In this document: positions 25,243-34,393 of the stretch, piece by piece
Layout of the letters: each line of letters opens with the position of its first letter
How positions within the stretch are numbered: the stretch's first letter is position 1
Source: Halobacteriovorax sp. GB3
GTDB taxonomy: Bacteria; Bdellovibrionota; Bacteriovoracia; Bacteriovoracales; Bacteriovoracaceae
Length of the DNA: 64,000 nucleotides
NCBI RefSeq assembly: GCF_028649655.1
Contig: NZ_JAQSLN010000004.1
Coordinates: forward strand, 310,001 to 374,000
Reading direction: 5' to 3'
Translations under genes and position numbers: made by a program
The notes under the pieces: model-generated
Seen by the model: only the letters and a program-made list of their open reading frames with translations
Database searches by the model: none
Told to the model about the DNA's origin: nothing

Positions 25243-25944
25243 ATGAAACATATAAAAAAGAATTCAATTGATTCAACTCAACAATATCTCTATGACAATT
25301 TTGATGAGCTTACATCTTTAGATCATGACGTCCTCATTTCTACAAATCAACAAACGAAGGGAGTAGGACGTAGAGGGAATAAGTGGATTGATCAATCAAA
25401 TGCATTGGCCTTTAGCTTCACTTTAAAAGCTCATTCAAAGCAAACTCTGACACCCCTTGAACTTGGTGCTCTTCTATCTCTCTACATTGAAAATAAGTTT
25501 AATAAGAGAATCTTTTTAAAATGGCCTAATGATATTTTAACCGGGAAAGGTGAAAAAGTTGGTGGTATTTTGTGCCAATTAAAGGGCTCCACAGTCATTG
25601 CAGGTATTGGTCTCAATCTTGGTCACTCAAATAATGTAATTGAAATTTGTAATGATCGCTATAGTGTCTCAACTGTTTTAGACTCAAAGATTTCTTCTGA
25701 TCTACAACATGAATTGCCACAAGAAATTGTTCAGTTCATTATATCCAACAGACTTGATGAACAAACTGTAATTAAAGAATGGAAAAAGAGATGTCTTCAT
25801 ATTGATAAGCCTGTCACTATTATTAATGATTCCGATGAGGTTAGTGGGATTTTTAAAGGTATTGGTCAATGGGGACAAGCGGTCATTGAGATAGATAAAG
25901 AGAGCCACGAATTCTATTCGGGCTCTCTTAGATTTTCTATTTGA
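25243..25944 (+). CDS. birA: Biotin-[acetyl-CoA-carboxylase] ligase (BirA, short form)
   Basis: Activates biotin with ATP and attaches it to the lysine of biotin carrier proteins. The 233 residues contain the catalytic loop KGVGRRGNKW (39-48), KWPNDILTGKGEKVGGIL (93-110) and GIGLNLGHS. The N-terminal DNA-binding domain of E. coli BirA is missing, so this is the short form and cannot repress transcription that way. A likely client is the biotin carrier protein encoded at 60181-60690. The 3' end overlaps the convergent regulator gene by 8 bases. Confidence 0.9.
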   Translation: MKHIKKNSIDSTQQYLYDNFDELTSLDHDVLISTNQQTKGVGRRGNKWIDQSNALAFSFTLKAHSKQTLTPLELGALLSLYIENKFNKRIFLKWPNDILTGKGEKVGGILCQLKGSTVIAGIGLNLGHSNNVIEICNDRYSVSTVLDSKISSDLQHELPQEIVQFIISNRLDEQTVIKEWKKRCLHIDKPVTIINDSDEVSGIFKGIGQWGQAVIEIDKESHEFYSGSLRFSI

Positions 25945-27310
25945 TTGATTCGTTCATTACTGTAGATGAGATATCTTTGATTTCTTTTCTAATCAAGTTC
26001 TCTGCAAGATCAGGAATTACTTCCCAAGTAACCTCTTCAACTTTAGATTTACAAGCTTCCTTGATCAACTCTTCTATCATTGGTTTTAGATTATTTGTAA
26101 TTCGCTCTACAATTTTATCTTCGTCAAATTGAAATTCTCTGTACTCTTGAGATTCCGCTTTTTCAGGAATGTCACTTACTGCTGAATTCAACTGGTTTCC
26201 TTTGACTTCTGTTTTTAATTCTAAATTTTTCAAATTCTCATTATCATCATCAATCGACCAGAATTGCTCTGCATCTTCTGAAGGAATTGAATCACCCTCA
26301 GATACAGTTTGTAGATCTCTCGCAAACTCCTTTGGAATTTGGTAACTCGGATCGGTTGCATCTTCATCGAGTTCTGATTCAATATTCATTTCTAATTCTT
26401 CATCACTTTCATCTGATGCTTCGAAGACTTCTTCCTCATCTTCTTGAACAGCGCCAGGATAAGAGACGCTCTTCAGATCCTCTTCACTCGAGCCAATATA
26501 ATCAACATCAGCATCCATATCAGGGTAATCGAGATCATCATTACTAGGTAAGACGACCTCTTCCTCTTCTACAGGTTCTGCACTCAAGGCTTCAAAAGCG
26601 TCATCGACTTCTTCTTCAAGGCTGCTTTCAAAACTCTCTTCTTCAACAACATGAAGGTTCGTTACATTATTTTGACCATCAATGACTGGTGGCATTTCTC
26701 CAAGTGACATCTGTGTATTAATAACGTTTGGAACTTCAATTCCCCATCCTTTAGCTTCTTCCATTAACATATTTTCTGAAGCCGAGGAATCTTGAAAATC
26801 TTCTTCATCATCAAAAGAGTGATCTTCTACTTCAGGAGAATCTAGAACCCAGTCGTCACCAAGTTCTGGTTCAGAGGACTCGCTGAACTCTTCAGGCAGA
26901 GAATGCTCTGCCGTTCGATCTAAATTAACCTCTGCGAGAGGTCTATCTGATTCGATAAGTTCTTGGCACTTTCTAATGAATTTTTCACTTTCAAATGGTT
27001 TCGTAATTTTTTCAGCAATTCCACAATCATTCATCTTTTGATCATTAATTGAATCAAAAGTCCCTAACATGGCCATAACTGCAACATTCGGAATATGTGT
27101 GTGAGCAAAAGTTGCTAACTCATAACCGCTTTGACTTCCTTCTAGGGAAAAATCTAATAGAATGAGATCGAATGCATCACTCTTAACAGCATTACGAAAC
27201 GACTCACCATCTAATACTGGCGTGATTTCATAATTCGTGTCTGCTAAAGTAATCTTAACGACTTTTTGAATTGTCTGACTGTCATCTGCTACTAATACTT
27301 TTGTTGTCAT
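25937..27310 (-). CDS. RomR-like polarity response regulator
   Basis: 457 residues: a receiver domain (about 1-118; D53 in LILLDFSLEG, K104 in KITKPFES), then a strongly acidic, low-complexity linker (about 130-400), and a conserved C-terminal module (about 405-450) with IVERITNNLKPMIEELI and VEEVTWEVIPDLAENLIRKE. There is no DNA-binding domain. Receiver, acidic linker and a terminal W-E-V-P-x-L-A helix match deltaproteobacterial polarity proteins of the RomR type, which position MglA; in Bdellovibrio a RomR homologue marks the invasive pole. The match is from memory of the family, so the name stays open. It is the last gene of the tadC-FHA-PP2C run. Confidence 0.6.
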   Translation of the reverse strand: MTTKVLVADDSQTIQKVVKITLADTNYEITPVLDGESFRNAVKSDAFDLILLDFSLEGSQSGYELATFAHTHIPNVAVMAMLGTFDSINDQKMNDCGIAEKITKPFESEKFIRKCQELIESDRPLAEVNLDRTAEHSLPEEFSESSEPELGDDWVLDSPEVEDHSFDDEEDFQDSSASENMLMEEAKGWGIEVPNVINTQMSLGEMPPVIDGQNNVTNLHVVEEESFESSLEEEVDDAFEALSAEPVEEEEVVLPSNDDLDYPDMDADVDYIGSSEEDLKSVSYPGAVQEDEEEVFEASDESDEELEMNIESELDEDATDPSYQIPKEFARDLQTVSEGDSIPSEDAEQFWSIDDDNENLKNLELKTEVKGNQLNSAVSDIPEKAESQEYREFQFDEDKIVERITNNLKPMIEELIKEACKSKVEEVTWEVIPDLAENLIRKEIKDISSTVMNESIK

Positions 27311-27359
27311 GACATTTATTTTCTCTTAATTTCTCATTTGAAGCAACAAGTAATGGAAA

Positions 27360-28094
27360 TTAAAATCGAAGAACAATAGTTGACTGATTATCTCTGTTAC
27401 CTCTTTCGTTTGCTAGGGAGAAGAGTTTTTCAACTTTTTCAGACTCTTTCATTTTCTGATTCCCGACTATTTCTCTCAAATCCTTAGGAAGAATTCGAGC
27501 GTAAACGCCATCGCTCATCATGATGATACAGTCACCTTCTTTAACTCGAACTTCTTTTACTTCATAACCAAGTTTAGTAAAAAGCCCAAGAGCATTGAGT
27601 GGCGCTGTATGAAACTGTGGTTGGTAAGTATCCATCCAAGGTGGAGTCATGCAATCTGGATTAGAAACAATTTGCACTTTGCTGTCTCTAATTAAGCAAC
27701 AAATAGTATTTCCAATCGACATCACATTAAAGATATTTCCACATAAGACGCCTCCGGCCATAGAACTACCACCTCTTTGATGCATTTCTTTCGTTTCATT
27801 TTCTTTCATCAAAGATTCATGGGCCATTAACGATGAATTAATCAGTGAGTTCATTTCTAACAGATATCTAGAATTAAAAACAAAGGGCATTGTTGAGTCA
27901 GGATCACCACCAATTTTAGAATAGAAGCTACTGATTTTGTCTTTCAATTGCGATACAGCAACATCGCCAACACCTGCACCACCAAAACCATCGAATAATA
28001 AAAATAGATTATTTGTTATATCCGTATAAATATCATCTTCGTTTATTTCTAAACAAGGTCCTTGATCTGTTTTTGCTGCGTATGACTTTAACAC
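27360..28094 (-). CDS. PP2C-family protein serine/threonine phosphatase
   Basis: Metal-dependent phosphatase of 244 residues, without a membrane segment. PP2C motifs seen: KTDQGPCLEINEDD near the N-terminus, LLFDGFGGAGVGD (metal ligand D35), GGSSMAGGVL, SIGNTICCLIRDSKV, MMSDGVYARI and a closing NRDNQSTIV with the last Asp ligand. All metal-binding aspartates appear intact, so it should be active. It is placed 8 bases after a double-FHA protein, suggesting it reverses the phospho-threonine marks FHA domains bind. No Ser/Thr kinase is in the window. Confidence 0.9.
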   Translation of the reverse strand: MLKSYAAKTDQGPCLEINEDDIYTDITNNLFLLFDGFGGAGVGDVAVSQLKDKISSFYSKIGGDPDSTMPFVFNSRYLLEMNSLINSSLMAHESLMKENETKEMHQRGGSSMAGGVLCGNIFNVMSIGNTICCLIRDSKVQIVSNPDCMTPPWMDTYQPQFHTAPLNALGLFTKLGYEVKEVRVKEGDCIIMMSDGVYARILPKDLREIVGNQKMKESEKVEKLFSLANERGNRDNQSTIVLRF

Positions 28095-28102
28095 AAAGAC
28101 TC

Positions 28103-30331
28103 CTAGTCTAAGTAATTCTTCAATTTTTCTGTAGCCTTTTTATAGTACTCACTATCCGTCGGCGAAATTTGTTGAACTTCTTGATACTTCTCTTTCGCTT
28201 CATTGAACTGACTCAAAGATTCAGAGATGATCGCTTCTCTGTATGTTTTTCTCGATCTCTTATGTAAAGTCGAGCGAATTTTATCCATCTCATTAAGTGC
28301 CTCAATACTTGAAGGATCATATTGAAGAATTTCATTATAAGTTTCATAAGCACCTTTCAAGTCTTGTCCTTCCTTCAACGATCGTGCCTTTCCAAGTAAC
28401 GGATTAACAACTCGCTTTAGATTTTCACGTGACTCTTCTAGCATTTTACTAGCTTCAGTAATGAGATCGTCATCCATACCCTCAAGTCGTAAGAAGTCTT
28501 CTAATTTCAATACGGCGTTGTACCATTCTTTTTTAAGATAAAAATTCTTTCCAGGCTGAAGCTCACTCTCTTGACGATTTCTCTCAGCTTCAGCTTGAGC
28601 TTTTGCTAAATCCTCTTCTTGAATTTTTCTCTTATAAGCTTCGATCTCAAGCTTAAGCTCAGTAACATCATAATTTTCTGGATCTAATTTAATGATCTCA
28701 GTAAATAAATTCTCGGCCAAAACAGTATTCTTTTCTTCAACTGCGGCCTTTGCCTTTTCGACTAGATCTTTAACTTTTTTCTTTCGAACGGCTTCTCTTT
28801 TTTCTCGTTCTTCTTTCTCTTGAAGCTCTTTCAATCTCGCAAGACCTTGCTTAGCAAGTTCATAGATTTGCTTGGCGTTTTTATACTCTTTCGCAATTAA
28901 AAATAATTGATCTAAATTTTCTACCGCTTCTCTATAGCGTCCTTCATTAATTAATTGCTGCGCTAATTGATAAAGGCCCTCAGCTGTCTCCGCTTGCTCT
29001 GGAGTTAATTTAATATCACTCTTGGTAGGAGCTTTCTTTTTTACAACTTTTTCTGTTTTCTTCGGAGCTTTCTTTTCAGGTGCACTATCCCCGCCCTCAT
29101 CTAAAAGAACCCAAGCTGCAACCAAACCTAAAACGATATAAATAAGTTTCTTTCTCTTGGCCGGGTCTTTCAAGGCCTCTTTAGAAAAAAGAGAATTGTT
29201 CGCTGACTGAGCTTCACCGAAGCTAGCACCTTCAATATCATCGTCATCAAAGTTTTCTTCATCAACTTCGACAACTTCTTCTACTTCAATCACCTGATTC
29301 TCTTCTACAGGCATTAAGCTTTGCTTTTCTGCCTCTAGAAAATCGGAACCAATATGAACAGTGAATGTAGTAGAACCAATAATGAATTCATCACCATTAG
29401 TTAGAATGTCTTTATTTACTCTTTTACCATTTAACAGAGTTCCATTAGATGATTGGAGATCTTCTAACTCACAAGTTATATTATTCCTCTTAATTACGGC
29501 ATGGATGCTTGAGACTTCACTATCATTCAATACGATCTGACATTTTTCTGGATCACGTCCTATGAAGATTTCATTATCACGTACGGAGTAATTATCATAA
29601 GGAGCATACTCTCCAAAAAGCTCTAAAGAAACTTTAGCAAAGCTGATTGCTACGTTCGTTTTATCTCCCATATCATCATCATAGGAATCTACAGCATATT
29701 CATCATCGCCATATTCATCATAGCCTTCCTCTTGGTCAGAGTATTGCTCATCAGTATTTTCGAATTCACTATTTTCACTGTCAAAGTCAAATCCTTCAGT
29801 ACCATCATTATCCTCTGGAAATTCACTTTCTTCAGCTCCATCTGAGATATCGAATTCTTTGACTTCGTCTTCACTTTCAACTTCTTGCTCATTATTTTCA
29901 ATTGGAGCATCTAATTCTGTCGTAAGATCTTCGACATCATCTACTTCATCACTTTCTACTTCTATTTCTTCTACATCATCATTTGGCCCTTCAAAAAGAG
30001 TCGGAGTCTGCTCCTTAACGGGCTCGATATAGACTGAAATATTAAACTCGCCCACTTTGATGATATCACCACTAGACAGTGGTGCTCCCTCACTAGGGAC
30101 ACCATTAATGTAGAGGACACCAAAGCCAGGTAATTTTCGAATAGACCAATTTCCTTGAATATAAGAAATTTGAGCATGTTCTCTTGATACTGTTTGATCA
30201 TTAAGACATACGTGGCAATCGCTTGAACGACCAAGCAAAAAAGTAATTTCTCCTTGCTCAATCCCTTCGATTTCTTTTGCAAGGTCAATTTCTTCGATGA
30301 ATTTATTTAGTTTCGAAACACTTAATTTCAC
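28103..30331 (-). CDS. Double-FHA membrane protein with TPR-like C-terminus
   Basis: 742 residues. FHA1 (about 15-105: EITFLLGRSSDCHVCLNDQT, VSREHAQI), a very acidic linker (about 115-220), FHA2 (about 240-325: EIFIGRDPEKCQIVLNDSE, SSIHAVIKRN, SSNGTLLNGKRV), a second acidic stretch, one membrane helix (LIYIVLGLVAAWVLL, about 395-412), then a helical TPR-like region to the end. FHA domains bind phospho-threonine and probably face the cytoplasm, with the TPR part in the periplasm. The 5' end overlaps the upstream FHA gene by 29 bases. Likely a scaffold linking phospho-signalling to an envelope machine. Confidence 0.88.
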   Translation of the reverse strand: MKLSVSKLNKFIEEIDLAKEIEGIEQGEITFLLGRSSDCHVCLNDQTVSREHAQISYIQGNWSIRKLPGFGVLYINGVPSEGAPLSSGDIIKVGEFNISVYIEPVKEQTPTLFEGPNDDVEEIEVESDEVDDVEDLTTELDAPIENNEQEVESEDEVKEFDISDGAEESEFPEDNDGTEGFDFDSENSEFENTDEQYSDQEEGYDEYGDDEYAVDSYDDDMGDKTNVAISFAKVSLELFGEYAPYDNYSVRDNEIFIGRDPEKCQIVLNDSEVSSIHAVIKRNNITCELEDLQSSNGTLLNGKRVNKDILTNGDEFIIGSTTFTVHIGSDFLEAEKQSLMPVEENQVIEVEEVVEVDEENFDDDDIEGASFGEAQSANNSLFSKEALKDPAKRKKLIYIVLGLVAAWVLLDEGGDSAPEKKAPKKTEKVVKKKAPTKSDIKLTPEQAETAEGLYQLAQQLINEGRYREAVENLDQLFLIAKEYKNAKQIYELAKQGLARLKELQEKEEREKREAVRKKKVKDLVEKAKAAVEEKNTVLAENLFTEIIKLDPENYDVTELKLEIEAYKRKIQEEDLAKAQAEAERNRQESELQPGKNFYLKKEWYNAVLKLEDFLRLEGMDDDLITEASKMLEESRENLKRVVNPLLGKARSLKEGQDLKGAYETYNEILQYDPSSIEALNEMDKIRSTLHKRSRKTYREAIISESLSQFNEAKEKYQEVQQISPTDSEYYKKATEKLKNYLD

Positions 30332-31292
30332 CTTCTAATAACCCCATTTTCCTTTCCAGAACTCTAATTTGTTCTTCGGCCTGCTTATATCTTTCATCTT
30401 CTTCTCGGTAATCTTGTAATAACTTAACGACTGAACAATATGAAACGACCGCGGCATCGTATTTTAGTGCTTCAGTTTCCTGTCTCGCACTAATAAATGT
30501 TTTTTTAATTTTTTCATCTAGTCTCTGTTTTGCTTTTTCCATATAGAAAGAAGCTCTTCCATGCTCAGGAGACAATATGAGGGCCCTTCTAAATTCTTCC
30601 ATTGCCCTAAAGTAATTCCCTTCTCTATACTCTCTTTGCCCTCTATGAATATAGGTCTCTATAGTATCTTGAAGCTCTTTATCTTCATCTGTTTCTTTTT
30701 TCTTAATGAAATTCTTAGTTAAATCAGCACTTACTTGATTATTTGTTTTCTTAGCTTTTTTTGGCCCTTTCGTATCTTCCTCAGGCAATAAGAAAAATGC
30801 TGCAAGCAGAGCAACAATTCCATAAATTAATACTCTTCGATTAGGCTTCTTCTTCGATTTAGATTTCTCTACTTCTTCAAGCTCTTCCTCTTCCTCATCT
30901 TCATCGTCTTCTTCATCAACTTCTACAAGTTCATTTTTAACTTCGATTTCACCATATTTTAAAACAGTCGTTCCGATAATAATCTTATCGCCATCTTTTA
31001 ACTCATGTTGTGATACTTTAAGATCATTAACAACGACACCATTTTGAGACTTAAGATCTGTTAAGACCAATCCCCGACCTACGGCCACGATTTCCAAGTG
31101 TTCTCTAGAAGCCTTTACATCTAAGACTTGGACATCACAATCTTTACCTCGGCCAAGGACGACACGTTTACCTTGTATATAATAACAAAGTCCTTTATTT
31201 TTTCCCGTTAAACAAATAATTCTGCGATAGAAACCAGGTTTCTCAGGAGCTTTTAAATTTCTTGTGATTTTAACAGCACTACTTGCCATCAC
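30303..31292 (-). CDS. FHA membrane protein with TPR-like C-terminus
   Basis: 329 residues with the same plan as the next gene, halved: one FHA domain (about 30-115: VVLGRGKDCDVQVLDVKASR, EHLEIV, SQNGVVVNDLKV), an Asp/Glu-rich linker with a long acidic run (about 124-145), one membrane helix (RVLIYGIVALLAAFFLL, about 153-170) and a TPR-like tail (GQREYREGNYFRAMEEFRRA, ILSPEHGRASFY). The shared plan suggests duplication from a common ancestor. The start overlaps the FHA/PAS sensor stop by 4 bases (ATGA), showing tight coupling. Confidence 0.88.
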   Translation of the reverse strand: MMASSAVKITRNLKAPEKPGFYRRIICLTGKNKGLCYYIQGKRVVLGRGKDCDVQVLDVKASREHLEIVAVGRGLVLTDLKSQNGVVVNDLKVSQHELKDGDKIIIGTTVLKYGEIEVKNELVEVDEEDDEDEEEEELEEVEKSKSKKKPNRRVLIYGIVALLAAFFLLPEEDTKGPKKAKKTNNQVSADLTKNFIKKKETDEDKELQDTIETYIHRGQREYREGNYFRAMEEFRRALILSPEHGRASFYMEKAKQRLDEKIKKTFISARQETEALKYDAAVVSYCSVVKLLQDYREEDERYKQAEEQIRVLERKMGLLEGEIKCFETK

Positions 31293-32857
31293 ACATCCTT
31301 AACAAATGTAACATAAAAAGCTTTTGCAAAATTATCCTTTCCCATTAATGACGTTACATAGACATTATGGGGTTGACCTTGAAGCTCATAATCGCCTTGC
31401 TGACTATATCCACCGTTATTAGCAGACTCCTCGCAAAGCTCTAGCACTGTCGCAGCAAAACCTTTTTCTCTACTTACATCTAATAGTGACATTCCCTCAG
31501 CTGAGCTTTCTCTAATCCCAGTTAAATCTTCTGCCTCAGTATTAATTGCGCGAACATTCTTTTCTGAATCAAGAATGACAACGGCACCATTGGCACCTCT
31601 AAGAAATTCTTTCAAGGTATCTACGTAACCATCATCACTTTCAATATCCGCAAATTCCCCATCCCCTCCATCATCTTGAAGCTCTCGTATCTTTTGTAAG
31701 AGCGAATTAACAGATGATTTCAGAGGATTAATCTCCTCAAAGAGATAGCGAGTCTCGACGTTTCTCTTCTTTCCACGAAGGACTTCCTCTATTTGATATT
31801 TAATTTCTTCAACAGGCCTAATCGTTAAATAATAAATAATCGCGAAAAAGATAATTGAAACAATCATCGAAGTAACAAGTGCTTCCATATATGCTTTTTG
31901 TGATTTAGCTGCTTCTCTTGCAAGGGATGTTGGAGCAAATCGTATCGCGATTAACCCAACCGCCTCAAAGTCTCCACTTTTGGGGTTATATGCAATAATT
32001 CTTTTTCCAATCCCAATACTCCCATCATCGAGTAGCTTAGTTAGCGTTCGACTATCTTGAGAGTTCATTCTATTCTTTTGCGCCCAATCTTTAACTTCAA
32101 TTGAAAATGTATCGTCGATGTATTCATTTAATCTAGCTAGTGGTCTTACAATACGTCCCTCAAGATCAAAAAGGTCATAGGACATTACACCGTCTTCTTT
32201 TTCAAGAAAATCTGAGTTCACACGATCTAAGTTTTTAGACTCGAGTGCTTGAGCATTAATTCTTCCAATTTCTTCAGCATAGTGAGCACCCCTTTTTGCA
32301 ATTTCTCGCAAAAGGAGCTTCTTACTATCTTGAAGTATAGGAAAAATAGTAAGCGTAATCGTTGTAACAACAAAGATAGAGAGAAGAATTCCAAAAAGAA
32401 CCCGCCATTCATACTCTTCATTTATTCCATGAACAATCGGCATGAACTTATATTTGAAATAATAAATAATTTTCGGGAATAATTTTTGAGGGACTGGCCC
32501 ACCTTTTAAAAATAATTCCTCAGGATCTTCTTCTTTTGCCATTTTCTTTTTAATGACAATTTTCTTTTCTTTAACAAAGACGACCTGAAGGATGACATCT
32601 GGAAGAGCGATTTTATCACCATTTTTTATGGTCGCTCGTTTGACAATTTTCCCATTTACGAAAGTTCCATTAGAACTTCCCAAATCTTTAAGATAAGCTA
32701 CATCATCTGTTACAGTAATCGAGAGATGCTTTTTTGAAACACCGTCAATATTTAGAGTATGGTCGCAAGATTCATCACGACCAATAGAGTTTTCGCCTGA
32801 CTCTAAGACAAACTCTTCTCCACGAATTTTCCCTGCGACTGCGACTAATTTATACAT
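31289..32857 (-). CDS. FHA-PAS transmembrane sensor
   Basis: 522 residues. N-terminal FHA domain (about 10-95: ENSIGRDESCDHTLNIDGVS, KKHLSI, SSNGTFVNGKIV), first membrane helix (VLFGILLSIFVVTTITLTIF, about 150-170), an extracytoplasmic sensor region of about 150 residues, second membrane helix (LVTSMIVSIIFFAIIYYL), a HAMP-like linker (TIRPVEEI, EEINPLKSSVNSLL) and a C-terminal PAS-like domain (GAVVILDSEKNVRAINTEAE, DLTGI). No kinase or cyclase output follows, so it probably signals by protein contact or through its FHA domain. It overlaps both neighbours by a few bases. Confidence 0.85.
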   Translation of the reverse strand: MYKLVAVAGKIRGEEFVLESGENSIGRDESCDHTLNIDGVSKKHLSITVTDDVAYLKDLGSSNGTFVNGKIVKRATIKNGDKIALPDVILQVVFVKEKKIVIKKKMAKEEDPEELFLKGGPVPQKLFPKIIYYFKYKFMPIVHGINEEYEWRVLFGILLSIFVVTTITLTIFPILQDSKKLLLREIAKRGAHYAEEIGRINAQALESKNLDRVNSDFLEKEDGVMSYDLFDLEGRIVRPLARLNEYIDDTFSIEVKDWAQKNRMNSQDSRTLTKLLDDGSIGIGKRIIAYNPKSGDFEAVGLIAIRFAPTSLAREAAKSQKAYMEALVTSMIVSIIFFAIIYYLTIRPVEEIKYQIEEVLRGKKRNVETRYLFEEINPLKSSVNSLLQKIRELQDDGGDGEFADIESDDGYVDTLKEFLRGANGAVVILDSEKNVRAINTEAEDLTGIRESSAEGMSLLDVSREKGFAATVLELCEESANNGGYSQQGDYELQGQPHNVYVTSLMGKDNFAKAFYVTFVKDV

Positions 32858-33182
32858 TCATCACCAGCTTTTGACCTTTTTCAATATTATTAACTGTGCC
32901 CGCTTTTAACTCTAGTACGTGCTTTGCTGTAAAATAGATCCATGACATTCTCCATGGTTTCATATTTTTTATTACTTTTACGACTTCATACTGAGAATTT
33001 AAGAAGATGACATCTATATCCATTCTCATGAAAAATGTATGAATCGAATTACAATGTGGTATTAAAAGAGCATCATAGCCAATCATCTCTTTTGTTCCCA
33101 TTAATCCGATCAGCCTTTGAAAGAATGTTTCAGCAACTCTTACGCGACTAGCGAGAATAGTTTCACCGATAATAGCTTTCAC
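32850..33182 (-). CDS. DUF192 family protein
   Basis: 110 residues, the DUF192 (COG1430) size. Family features: ASRVRVAETFFQRLIGLMG near the start, DALLIPHCNSIHTFFMRMDI, DVIFLNSQYEVVKV, and a late AKHVLELKAGT. Many family members are exported, but this one has no signal peptide. Biochemical function is unknown. DUF192 genes are often found near Tad/Flp pilus genes in Bdellovibrio relatives, which fits its place between tadC (1-base overlap) and the FHA sensor. Confidence 0.88.
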   Translation of the reverse strand: MKAIIGETILASRVRVAETFFQRLIGLMGTKEMIGYDALLIPHCNSIHTFFMRMDIDVIFLNSQYEVVKVIKNMKPWRMSWIYFTAKHVLELKAGTVNNIEKGQKLVMNV

Positions 33183-34393
33183 TATTGCCCTCCTGCCATC
33201 ATTTCAATTACAAGAGGTCCACCAACAATTAGAAAAACGGCCGGTGTGATCAAAAATAGCATGGGAAAGAGAATTTTAGTTGCAGCTGTCGCTCCAGCCT
33301 TTTCAACATCGGCAGATTTCTTCTGTCTAATTTCAACAGCAAGTGCTTTTAAGATTGGACCAATAGATGCCCCAACAGAGTCTGCGGCAATCAGTGTTGC
33401 ACAGAATGAAGAAATAACCATCATATCAGATCTCCAGGCCATATTACGTAAGGCCTCAGATCGACTTGCTCCAATTTTAATTTCCTTAATAAGAATTTCA
33501 AATTCTTCTGTGAGTGGAGATTTTCGTGCCTTTTCAACTACTTTAGTCATTGCAGCGACAAAATCTAAACCAGCTTCAACAGAAAGAGCTAGCATATCAA
33601 CACAAAATGGCATCGATGATGTTATATCTTTTTGTCTCTTCTCAATTTTTCCTTTGATCCAAATATCGGGATAAACAAAACCAAGAAGAGCAACTCCTGG
33701 AATATATGAAAGTGGCCATGTCTCTTCAAGAAATGTTCTAATGACAATAAAGACAATTGGAAAACCAAGAATCAAAAAGAGTTTAAAGGCATAAAAGTCT
33801 TCAGTCGTTAGATAATCAGTTAAACCAGCACTGGCTAATTTTCTTTTATACTTCTCTCTAATTTTTTTCTTATTTTTCATCTGCGCTACAATGGGTGAAA
33901 CGTAACGCTTAAAAAATGGCCTTGAATATTTTAGAACGATTCCATGTTCTTCCTGGGCCTGACCTTTTCCCTTATCAGAACCATCTTCTAATTTTTCTTG
34001 TGCCTTATATTCATCTTCATCCGCAAACATAGTTCGCGTAATAATTAACGTCGCAATACCAATGAGAATGACACCAGCGTAGAGCAAGAGATCAGAAGTC
34101 TCTTCAAAGATTCCCTCCTCTCCTTTCAGATACTGACATCCCTCTTTAGAACCAAGTTTACATGCTTCTCGTATGTACTTTGTTCCAAGCGCTTTAGATC
34201 TCTCATTCTCAACTCTTTTAAAACGAAGTCCTAAATCCAAACAATTCGGTGCCGAGCCTCGTTCACAGCCATCTTTCAATAAAAGATTGATGTCCCGACC
34301 ACTGAAACCCTTGTACGTACTATTCACATTAGACTGCGCTAACGTTATTGATATCGAAAATATTAGACTTATAAAAAGCAGCAAAATTCTCAT
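33182..34393 (-). CDS. tadC: Tad/Flp pilus assembly protein TadC with extra N-terminal domain
   Basis: Inner-membrane platform protein of the Tad type IVc pilus or secretion machine. The C-terminal 240 residues are a T2SSF domain with membrane segments and the TadC pattern MPFCVDMLALSVEAGLDFVA, then SLGAS-like SVGASIGPILKALA and a final hydrophobic pair. The N-terminus is unusual: a signal peptide (ILLLFISLIFSISITLA), a Sel1-like repeat pair (GCERGSAPNCLDLGLRF, ACKLGSKEGCQYLKG) and an extra membrane helix (about 108-125). So a periplasmic Sel1-like part is fused to TadC. It is the first gene of the FHA run; other tad genes are not in the window. Confidence 0.85.
   Translation of the reverse strand: MRILLLFISLIFSISITLAQSNVNSTYKGFSGRDINLLLKDGCERGSAPNCLDLGLRFKRVENERSKALGTKYIREACKLGSKEGCQYLKGEEGIFEETSDLLLYAGVILIGIATLIITRTMFADEDEYKAQEKLEDGSDKGKGQAQEEHGIVLKYSRPFFKRYVSPIVAQMKNKKKIREKYKRKLASAGLTDYLTTEDFYAFKLFLILGFPIVFIVIRTFLEETWPLSYIPGVALLGFVYPDIWIKGKIEKRQKDITSSMPFCVDMLALSVEAGLDFVAAMTKVVEKARKSPLTEEFEILIKEIKIGASRSEALRNMAWRSDMMVISSFCATLIAADSVGASIGPILKALAVEIRQKKSADVEKAGATAATKILFPMLFLITPAVFLIVGGPLVIEMMAGGQ

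Follow-up and report, generated by a model that had tools for sequence, protein, structure and literature searches.

In Bdellovibrio bacteriovorus, mutants of Bd0470, the TadC gene, are reported to lose attachment to prey, and mutants of Bd0474 to attach yet neither kill nor round it (PMC6561027). The TPR part of Bd0474 is given as predicted extracytoplasmic in the published account, and the protein binds Bd0075 by two-hybrid (PMC12034629). In Myxococcus xanthus the Kil system (MXAN_3102-3108 and MXAN_4648-4661) is described as a Tad-like machine encoded in two clusters with many FHA proteins, and its clusters assemble at the sites where prey is touched, not at a fixed pole; how prey contact leads to pilus assembly is still put there as a question, with FHA proteins pointed to and the kinase and phosphatase left unnamed (PMC8460266). 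Work on DgcB likewise describes the prey-contact kinase as unidentified (PMC6733907). Cytoplasmic FHA domains tied to a membrane machine are also found in YscD, GltG and the T6SS Fha proteins.

Bacterial predators depend on a pilus gene cluster for prey killing, and the locus studied here represents its conserved second half. It lies in the window, a stretch of 64,000 nucleotides from Halobacteriovorax sp. GB3, on the minus strand between positions 34393 and 25937, and consists of seven genes encoding TadC, a DUF192 protein, an FHA/PAS protein, an FHA/TPR protein, a double FHA/TPR protein, a PP2C phosphatase and a RomR-family regulator. Each of the seven genes listed in an earlier, sequence-only reading was found where it had been placed, on that strand, and the T2SSF (TadC), DUF192, FHA, TPR and receiver labels were recovered by library search. 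Two labels were less clear-cut: the PAS domain scored 21.7 bits against a Pfam cut-off of 22.6, although the predicted structure shows a PAS-like C-terminal domain, and the phosphatase stayed below the Pfam cut-off (PP2C_2, 21.9 against 24) but gave an NCBIfam Stp1/IreP match of 4.4e-20, itself under that model's cut-off.

The six-gene core from TadC to PP2C is already known. Its gene content matches that of Bd0470 to Bd0475, with TadC first (Bd0470), an FHA protein (Bd0473), a double FHA and TPR protein (Bd0474) and then Bd0475; this correspondence was drawn from the published descriptions of the Bd genes and not from alignment, and a RomR gene is not part of those descriptions (PMC6561027, PMC12034629). 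In a relative genome (G041), the last gene of the operon encodes a PP2C relative devoid of catalytic motifs, whereas the PP2C of the window is intact. The core is a Kil-like Tad module; Tad genes in two clusters and several FHA proteins are present here too. However, the KilF ATPase is fused to an FHA domain, whereas the Tad ATPase of this genome carries an N-terminal ParA/MinD domain and gave no FHA match, and we therefore call the module Kil-like and do not file it as Kil. The Kil gene descriptions, moreover, name neither PP2C nor RomR (PMC8460266).

The FHA genes are clustered: four of the ten FHA matches given by a profile search of the genome are packed into about 3.4 kb of the window. 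The gene order is seen again within the same family and in nine of the 11 other families with loci compared. Of 19 other-family regions, 14, belonging to those 9/11 families, show the succession FHA/PAS, FHA/TPR, double FHA/TPR, and the RomR-like gene followed PP2C in 21/21 same-family regions. A search with the RomR profile gave 245 loci, the best 80 of which are the named Bacteriovoracia loci; 65 of these 80 hold the full seven-gene set, in order in 65/65. As these loci were chosen by that profile, they cannot show how frequent RomR is outside the operon; the independent check on its placement comes from the family-region comparison and from RomR-C counts per genome, both of which depend on the genomes chosen. 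In the same best 80 of 245, locus L107 had the other six genes and no TadC match; L056 lacks TadC in the ORF table because a frame on the opposite strand was chosen, and TadC was seen at L117, whose contig has an equal length. The possibility that the order is conserved in no relative was thus rejected by the gene-neighbourhood comparison, the order having held in the same family, in other families and at the named loci, and this recurrence together with the FHA clustering indicates that the grouping is not due to chance.

The tadC gene (33182..34393) encodes 403 residues with a signal-peptide-like N-terminus and an extra N-terminal region, and is followed by the DUF192 gene (32850..33182, 110 residues). 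The T2SSF matches of the genome comprise two paired genes, the TadC of the window, which is the only TadC-type match outside that pair, and one TadB at a locus on another contig (L045), so that TadB and TadC are each single-copy and lie on separate contigs. The latter locus also encodes a secretin, RcpC/CpaB, a T2SSE protein fused to a ParA/MinD domain and a peptidase A24, together with a weak Flp match below the curated cut-off. The Tad pilus set is therefore complete in the genome (TadA ATPase, TadB, TadC, secretin, CpaB, prepilin peptidase and, weakly, Flp pilin), and a second TadC or TadB serving the machine was rejected by the T2SSF profile search of the genome, which gave one of each. 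The Tad label of the sequence-only reading thus holds for a single gene at this locus, whereas the remainder of the set is elsewhere; the tie to a Tad machine itself was borne out. In four of 14 other-family operons (L073, L074, L076 and L078, from three families), the same operon runs directly into CpaB, secretin and TadZA genes ordered as at L045, and three of these four also gave a TadB match. We consider the Tad link firm on account of this contiguity and of the one TadB and one TadC of this genome.

Four FHA domains above the Pfam cut-off are spread over three proteins, all with predicted transmembrane segments. The FHA/PAS receptor (31289..32857, 522 residues) is predicted to be organized as FHA, transmembrane segment, Cache-like domain, transmembrane segment, HAMP-like helices and PAS, the Cache-like domain being extracytoplasmic, and it has no catalytic output domain; its best whole-length Foldseek match was WalK, with a low TM-score. 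The FHA/TPR protein (30303..31292, 329 residues), in which Cys 286 and Cys 325 are nearly invariant, and the double FHA/TPR protein (28103..30331, 742 residues), which has the architecture and position of Bd0474, are predicted to carry one and two FHA domains, respectively, followed by a transmembrane segment and an extracytoplasmic TPR part. The phosphothreonine-binding face of FHA domains is formed by Arg, Ser, His and Asn. These residues are present in the FHA domains of the FHA/PAS protein (32603..32788; R27, S41, H44, N63) and of the FHA/TPR protein (30972..31163; R48, S62, H65, N84) and in the second domain of the double protein (29375..29566; R259, S274, H277, N296), while the first domain of the latter (30050..30238) retains Arg and Ser and has lost the Asn loop. 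In Bacteriovoracia alignments, the four residues were retained in 65-67/67, 70/70 and 73-74/74 rows of the three intact domains.

The phosphatase gene (27360..28094, 244 residues) keeps its metal-binding motif residues in the family. In PP2C enzymes the metal-binding Asp residues lie in DG, SDG and DN motifs, and in Bacteriovoracia they were kept in 77-80 of 80 rows (best 80 of 245 loci). In other families the protein is degenerate, with the SDG Asp in 1/6 and the DN Asp in 2/6, three more being detectable by profile only, and no PP2C match was obtained in three of 14 other-family operons, all of family f3. An active eraser within the operon is therefore not universal, and that of the other families looks inactive from its residues. 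Within Bacteriovoracia, the retained FHA and PP2C residues support the proposed reader-eraser set of four FHA domains in three membrane proteins plus a phosphatase. The accompanying statement that no kinase is present applies to the operon, which holds no kinase gene, but not to the genome, as all 39 genomes searched (39 of 59 entries) encode a kinase in trans, six of them with no other PF00069 match. In the genome of the window this kinase gene lies at C3:1272958-1273737. Close inspection of one kinase per genome in 16 of those 39 gave an intact membrane Ser/Thr kinase in 16/16 carrier genomes, mutually alike and with HRD and DFG kept.

The last gene (25937..27310) encodes a 457-residue protein with a receiver domain (D9, D10, D53, K104), a variable acidic linker and a RomR-C region (25949..26137; W429, P433) of which this is the only copy found in the genome. 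The described features of RomR are the same, namely a receiver with an acidic pair, Asp53 and Lys, a variable linker and an invariant C-terminal Trp and Pro (PMC3441718); the linker here is long and carries family-specific motifs. The receiver residues were kept in 78-79/79 rows, and Trp and Pro in 79/79, these rows having been fetched partly by a pattern that contains the Pro; all 21 family rows fetched via the double FHA gene also have both residues. Membership in the RomR family is supported by the RomR-C profile match and the single RomR-C per genome. There was no RomR model among the NCBIfam matches listed, which are generic regulators only, and a PDB search returned receiver domains only. 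A second RomR elsewhere in the genome was rejected by genome searches, RomR-C occurring once. RomR is expected to co-occur with MglA and MglB, and beside recR this genome encodes a GTPase that is MglA-like together with a protein of 166 residues, labelled here as putative MglA and MglB from their motifs and from the description of B. marinus; PF08477 gave nothing above its cut-off in the MglA search and PF00025 gave a match. In B. marinus, an MglA-like gene and its neighbours are described beside recR in the same arrangement (PMC3983030). Whereas romR adjoins a Tad/FHA operon here, it is described as a single-gene operon in B. bacteriovorus (PMC6428892). We found no published RomR-FHA or RomR-Tad gene link in the open-access main texts consulted, and the words FHA and Tad are absent from the main text of the RomR proximity paper (PMC11025332).

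The adjacency of romR is confined to Bacteriovoracia, looser than the other junctions and set within a wider chromosomal synteny. The seven genes had been said to overlap or nearly touch; this stands for the first six, but the RomR-like gene lies 49 nt away (27311..27359). In the best 80 of 245 RomR-profile loci, the spacer measures 43-131 nt in 79 relatives, against medians of -29 to +3 nt at the other junctions, and the operon is therefore better described as six plus one. Could the regulator then be a mere neighbour on the chromosome, transcribed from a promoter of its own, without a special Tad role and kept in place by slow rearrangement? We regard this as a serious possibility, although short of an even one. 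The flanking NagZ, BPL, RNase PH and Ham1 genes are also syntenic in most of the named loci (best 80 of 245), so adjacency alone is weak evidence, and RomR-C proteins of other families lie outside the operon. In addition, the spacer may contain a promoter of romR: it holds an element, TTAAGAGAAAATA (27317-27329), that recurs at the same place in relatives, and the pattern TTARNNGANAATW was exact in 12 of 60 non-redundant spacers for 0.13 expected, a statistic that is exploratory since the pattern was picked after reading the spacers. Across the whole window, TTARNNGANAATW is not over-represented (2 for 2.5 expected). However, the spacers show no enrichment in sigma-70 -10 boxes (39/60, compared with 33.7 in shuffles), the gene directly follows PP2C in 79 of the 80 Bacteriovoracia loci, with PP2C just upstream and on the same strand in 79/79 loci holding both (best 80 of 245), and the seven genes stay together despite differing flanks at L070/L170 (one genome) and L092.

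A related doubt is whether the protein is a paralog, and not the ortholog, of Myxococcus and Bdellovibrio RomR, in which case polar functions could not be transferred; we hold this to be rather unlikely. The acidic pair is DD here, while B. bacteriovorus RomR is reported with D11E12 (PMC6428892), like the L188/L183 type, and in a receiver tree built without MXAN_4461 and Bd2761, by which one-to-one orthology is not settled, the smallest split to contain every family receiver and all 12 RomR-C receivers (UFBoot 90) also takes in four without RomR-C. Placement is complementary, though: RomR-C occurs once per genome in 18/22, within the operon in 11/11 family genomes and elsewhere in seven others. 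A search for an L188-type regulator in the 11 family genomes, that of the window included, gave generic receiver matches only, and the RomR-C profile matched 12 other-family RomR-C regions with a probability score of 98.2 and the L188/L183 pair with 96.6, as opposed to only 0.4 for the C-termini of 12 other regulators. The FHA proteins, for their part, might be structural, forming phosphorylation-independent inner-membrane rings or adaptors like the T3SS protein YscD or the gliding-machine protein GltG, with FHA domains that do no more than pack the cytoplasmic ring and TPR parts bridging to the secretin. Each of the three proteins is matched by Pfam Yop-YscD_cpl, and the double protein also by NCBIfam GltG over FHA and transmembrane segment (1.8e-19, under the model's cut-off). 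Foldseek returned YscD structures among its matches, and the missing Asn loop of one domain fits as well; at L049 and L050, FHA proteins also adjoin small membrane proteins of TolQ/TolR-like appearance. We nevertheless find a purely structural role unlikely, because the phosphothreonine contacts of three of the four domains are kept almost everywhere, including 14 other-family loci, and the nearest folds are those of phosphothreonine-binding FHA domains (3po8, GarA, OdhI, DgcB), ranked before YscD. The PP2C and the trans kinase also suit a phospho-switch. Unlike YscD, GltG or Fha, the locus has three linked FHA membrane proteins, one of them receptor-like, next to a phosphatase.

Starting from the gene content and order, single-copy counts, residue conservation and split Tad cluster that we observed, we infer a polar, phospho-gated control of the Tad machine, of which the topology, the phospho-switching, the kinase involved and the RomR-Tad coupling are putative. 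The predator would have a single Kil-like Tad pilus, with the six genes from TadC to PP2C supplying its control half at the inner membrane and the other contig encoding the remainder (Flp pilin, prepilin peptidase, CpaB, secretin, TadZ-TadA fusion and TadB). The FHA/PAS receptor would sense contact or envelope state through its Cache-like domain and relay it to the FHA and PAS domains on its cytoplasmic side, not to a kinase domain, while the two FHA-TM-TPR proteins would read cytoplasmic phosphothreonine and join these marks, through their extracytoplasmic TPR parts, to the envelope parts of the machine. With the membrane Ser/Thr kinase encoded elsewhere writing the marks and PP2C erasing them, the platform may be switched at prey contact, and the genome's only RomR-family protein may couple it to the invasive pole. 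As a whole, a phospho-switched Tad control half with RomR pole coupling is our best explanation, and we put its chances at about even. It is doubtful whether one can go further and propose that the pole marker RomR has, in Bacteriovoracia, turned into a dedicated part of the predation Tad pilus, fired by a full phosphothreonine circuit (FHA-Cache-PAS receptor, FHA-TPR couplers, an active PP2C as eraser and, as writer, a single near-universal membrane kinase), whereas other lineages of the phylum would have romR at a separate place and an eraser reduced to a pseudophosphatase scaffold. On that reading, the predator would possess a Tad machine with its writer, readers, eraser and pole address.

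The newer points are the RomR adjacency, the retention of FHA residues, the contrast between intact and decayed PP2C and the trans kinase of carrier genomes. They provide a small and concrete set for prey-contact signalling, made of three conserved FHA readers, a PP2C that one class keeps intact whereas it has decayed elsewhere, a kinase shared by all carrier genomes examined and a RomR link. The RomR link, if true, would connect the Tad machine with the polarity system.

On the minus strand, starting at 34393 and ending at 25937, ORFs and domain matches define, in this order, the genes for TadC, a DUF192 protein, FHA/PAS, FHA/TPR and double FHA/TPR proteins, a PP2C phosphatase and a RomR-like regulator. 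The sequence-only reading had all seven overlapping or nearly touching; this is true of the first six, but the RomR-like gene lies 49 nt downstream of PP2C. Its assignment of four FHA domains to three membrane proteins was borne out by both Pfam and hydropathy: of the 10 FHA matches over the Pfam cut-off in this 3.62 Mb genome, 4 fall in three operon proteins, with one transmembrane segment by hydropathy in each FHA/TPR protein (single and double) and two in FHA/PAS, and none in PP2C or the RomR-like protein. Given cytoplasmic FHA and PAS domains, the TPR parts and the FHA/PAS middle domain would be extracytoplasmic, and the Cys 286 and Cys 325 pair of the FHA/TPR protein (69/70 aligned rows) would fit an oxidising compartment. 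The window TadC (33182-34393) has an additional N-terminal region with a signal-peptide-like start; among the best 80 of the 245 loci found with the RomR profile, 44 of 63 complete TadC frames have at least 370 residues and 19 are shorter (about 300).

The FHA/TPR model (mean pLDDT 86.6, pTM 0.48) found FHA domains as nearest folds in a structure search (3po8, TM 0.92 of target), a YscD-type T3SS protein ranking 43rd. The FHA/PAS model (mean pLDDT 80.9, pTM 0.41) is ordered as FHA, TM helix, alpha-beta outer domain, TM helix, more helices and PAS-like domain. Its first match, WalK (E 1.9e-14), has a TM of 0.27 and an rmsd of 17.8 and therefore gives just a hint of a common layout; from its secondary structure the outer domain may be Cache-like.

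The locus is real and well conserved, its gene order, which had been proposed as a check, being kept in the same family and, for the three FHA genes, in 9 of 11 others. In the same-family sample (20 regions plus L092), the RomR-like gene follows PP2C in 21/21, and TadC was seen in 18/21, the other three being two contig edges and one ORF-choice artefact. The best 80 of 245 loci, mostly from Bacteriovoracaceae, Halobacteriovorax, Bacteriovorax or Bdellovibrionales metagenome-assembled genomes (here called Bacteriovoracia) and selected by RomR profile, contain RomR-like in 80, PP2C and double FHA in 79 each, FHA/TPR in 76, FHA/PAS in 73, DUF192 in 66 and TadC in 65. All seven genes occur in 65 of these 80, in order in 65/65; of the 15 lacking TadC, 14 start or end within the operon. 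The exception, L107 from a Bacteriovoracaceae metagenome-assembled genome, has the other six genes in place, but nothing that matches TadC lies between its NagZ and DUF192 genes. Flanking genes are syntenic as well; at L070/L170 and L092 the flanks differ and the seven genes remain together. In other families the three FHA genes stand in order in 14/19 regions, the five remaining belonging to f7, to f9 and, in one f4 genome, to a second locus. TadC lies upstream in 10 of these 14 (three of the other four begin at a contig end), and the RomR-like gene follows in 0/14.

Fixed RomR adjacency in Bacteriovoracia is new here. A RomR-C profile from 81 family proteins matched the C-termini of 12 other-family regulators (probability 98.2) and the L188/L183 pair (96.6), versus 0.4 for 12 other regulators. 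Exactly one copy was present in 18 of 22 genomes searched, and none was found in f3 and f7; the sole copy is the operon-adjacent gene in 11 family genomes and lies elsewhere in 7 others. The proposed RomR-family membership of the last gene is thereby supported, as judged from sequence; it would be a candidate ortholog of MXAN_4461 and Bd2761, a point that the receiver-domain tree does not decide. A recurrent element, TTARNNGANAATW, lies upstream of the RomR gene (27317-27329, minus strand), where only a few nt separate it from the start codon, and in spacers of relatives; it is exact in 12/60 non-redundant spacers against 0.13 expected, for a pattern picked after viewing the spacers. On contig C5 of the window's genome, recR, a 166-residue protein in the MglB place and an MglA-like GTPase stand in a row (L249:1465-3179). 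RomR of B. bacteriovorus is reported to be essential, polar and encoded by a single-gene operon (PMC3983030, PMC6428892, PMC11025332).

The predicted reader-eraser set is supported within the family. The key phosphothreonine residues of FHA, which we take to be Arg, Ser, His and Asn, are kept in FHA/PAS (65, 67, 66 and 67 of 67 rows), in FHA/TPR (each 70/70) and in the second FHA of the double protein (74, 74, 73 and 73 of 74). In the first FHA of that protein, Arg and Ser persist in 74/74 and His in 69/74, but the Asn loop does not. The 14 other-family loci likewise keep these residues, with weaker conservation in the double protein's first FHA. PP2C retains E, D, D, SDG-Asp and DN-Asp in 80, 80, 80, 77 and 77 of 80 rows, but its motifs are degenerate in other families (SDG-Asp 1/6, DN-Asp 2/6). 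Relatives at L080, L081 and L083 were found by profile only (E 2e-12 to 1e-8) and lack the SDG/DN motifs, and three f3 loci gave no PP2C match. By sequence, these other-family relatives would be pseudophosphatases; this apparent contrast between intact PP2C in Bacteriovoracia and decayed PP2C elsewhere is new here.

That no kinase is present holds for the operon but not for the genome, which has two PF00069 matches, proteins of 666 (contig C3) and 234 residues (C1). At least one match occurs in 39/39 genomes searched, as the sole one in G008, G014, G022, G028, G032 and G050. Relatives of the 666-residue protein, at E 6e-60 or better, occur in all 15 further genomes compared, with HRD and DFG kept in 16/16. 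The protein is the natural candidate for the writer, with no physical link to the operon seen. This candidate is new for the operon; in the DgcB paper, Bd3148 is named as a kinase candidate (PMC6733907).

The Tad tie was confirmed. The genome has six T2SSF matches: two adjacent pairs (each one frame), the window TadC and a single one at L045, a contig C5 locus encoding a Flp-like pilin, an A24 peptidase, CpaB/RcpC, secretin, a 732-residue ParA/MinD plus T2SSE protein, TadB and an RHS-repeat protein. In L073 (f8), L074 and L076 (f12) and L078 (f4), a window-type operon is followed by a few small genes, then CpaB, secretin, a TadZ-TadA fusion, TadB (recognised in 3/4) and an RHS-type protein, in the order of L045. 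This contiguity makes the operon and L045 halves of one cluster, a demonstration that is new here. TadZ (ParA/MinD) and the TadA ATPase form a single chain at L045:10297-12495 and in those four loci; the L078 frame (918 residues) additionally matches the TadC/TadB family, perhaps with TadB also fused. The RHS-repeat/DUF6531 protein (L045:7687-9312) adjoins TadB, has relatives at the 3' end of the four Tad clusters, and is possibly a conserved Tad-linked secreted protein.

Two further FHA loci of this genome, L049:9495-11315 (C3) and L050:9027-11054 (C2), each pair an FHA protein with small membrane proteins of TolQ/TolR-like appearance and resemble duplicated gliding-motor (Glt-like) loci. By published descriptions, the B. 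bacteriovorus counterpart of the operon is Bd0470-Bd0475, and the operon core is already known as a predation-essential Tad/FHA operon. There, the TadC mutant does not attach, the Bd0474 mutant attaches and neither kills nor rounds prey (PMC6561027), and Bd0474, which has a pair of FHA domains in the cytoplasm and its TPR part outside it, binds Bd0075 (PMC12034629); for M. xanthus Kil, FHA proteins are suspected of acting in a signalling cascade (PMC8460266). The polar signalling role suggested for this locus is best read as a polar phospho-switch, a reading that has about an even chance of being right.
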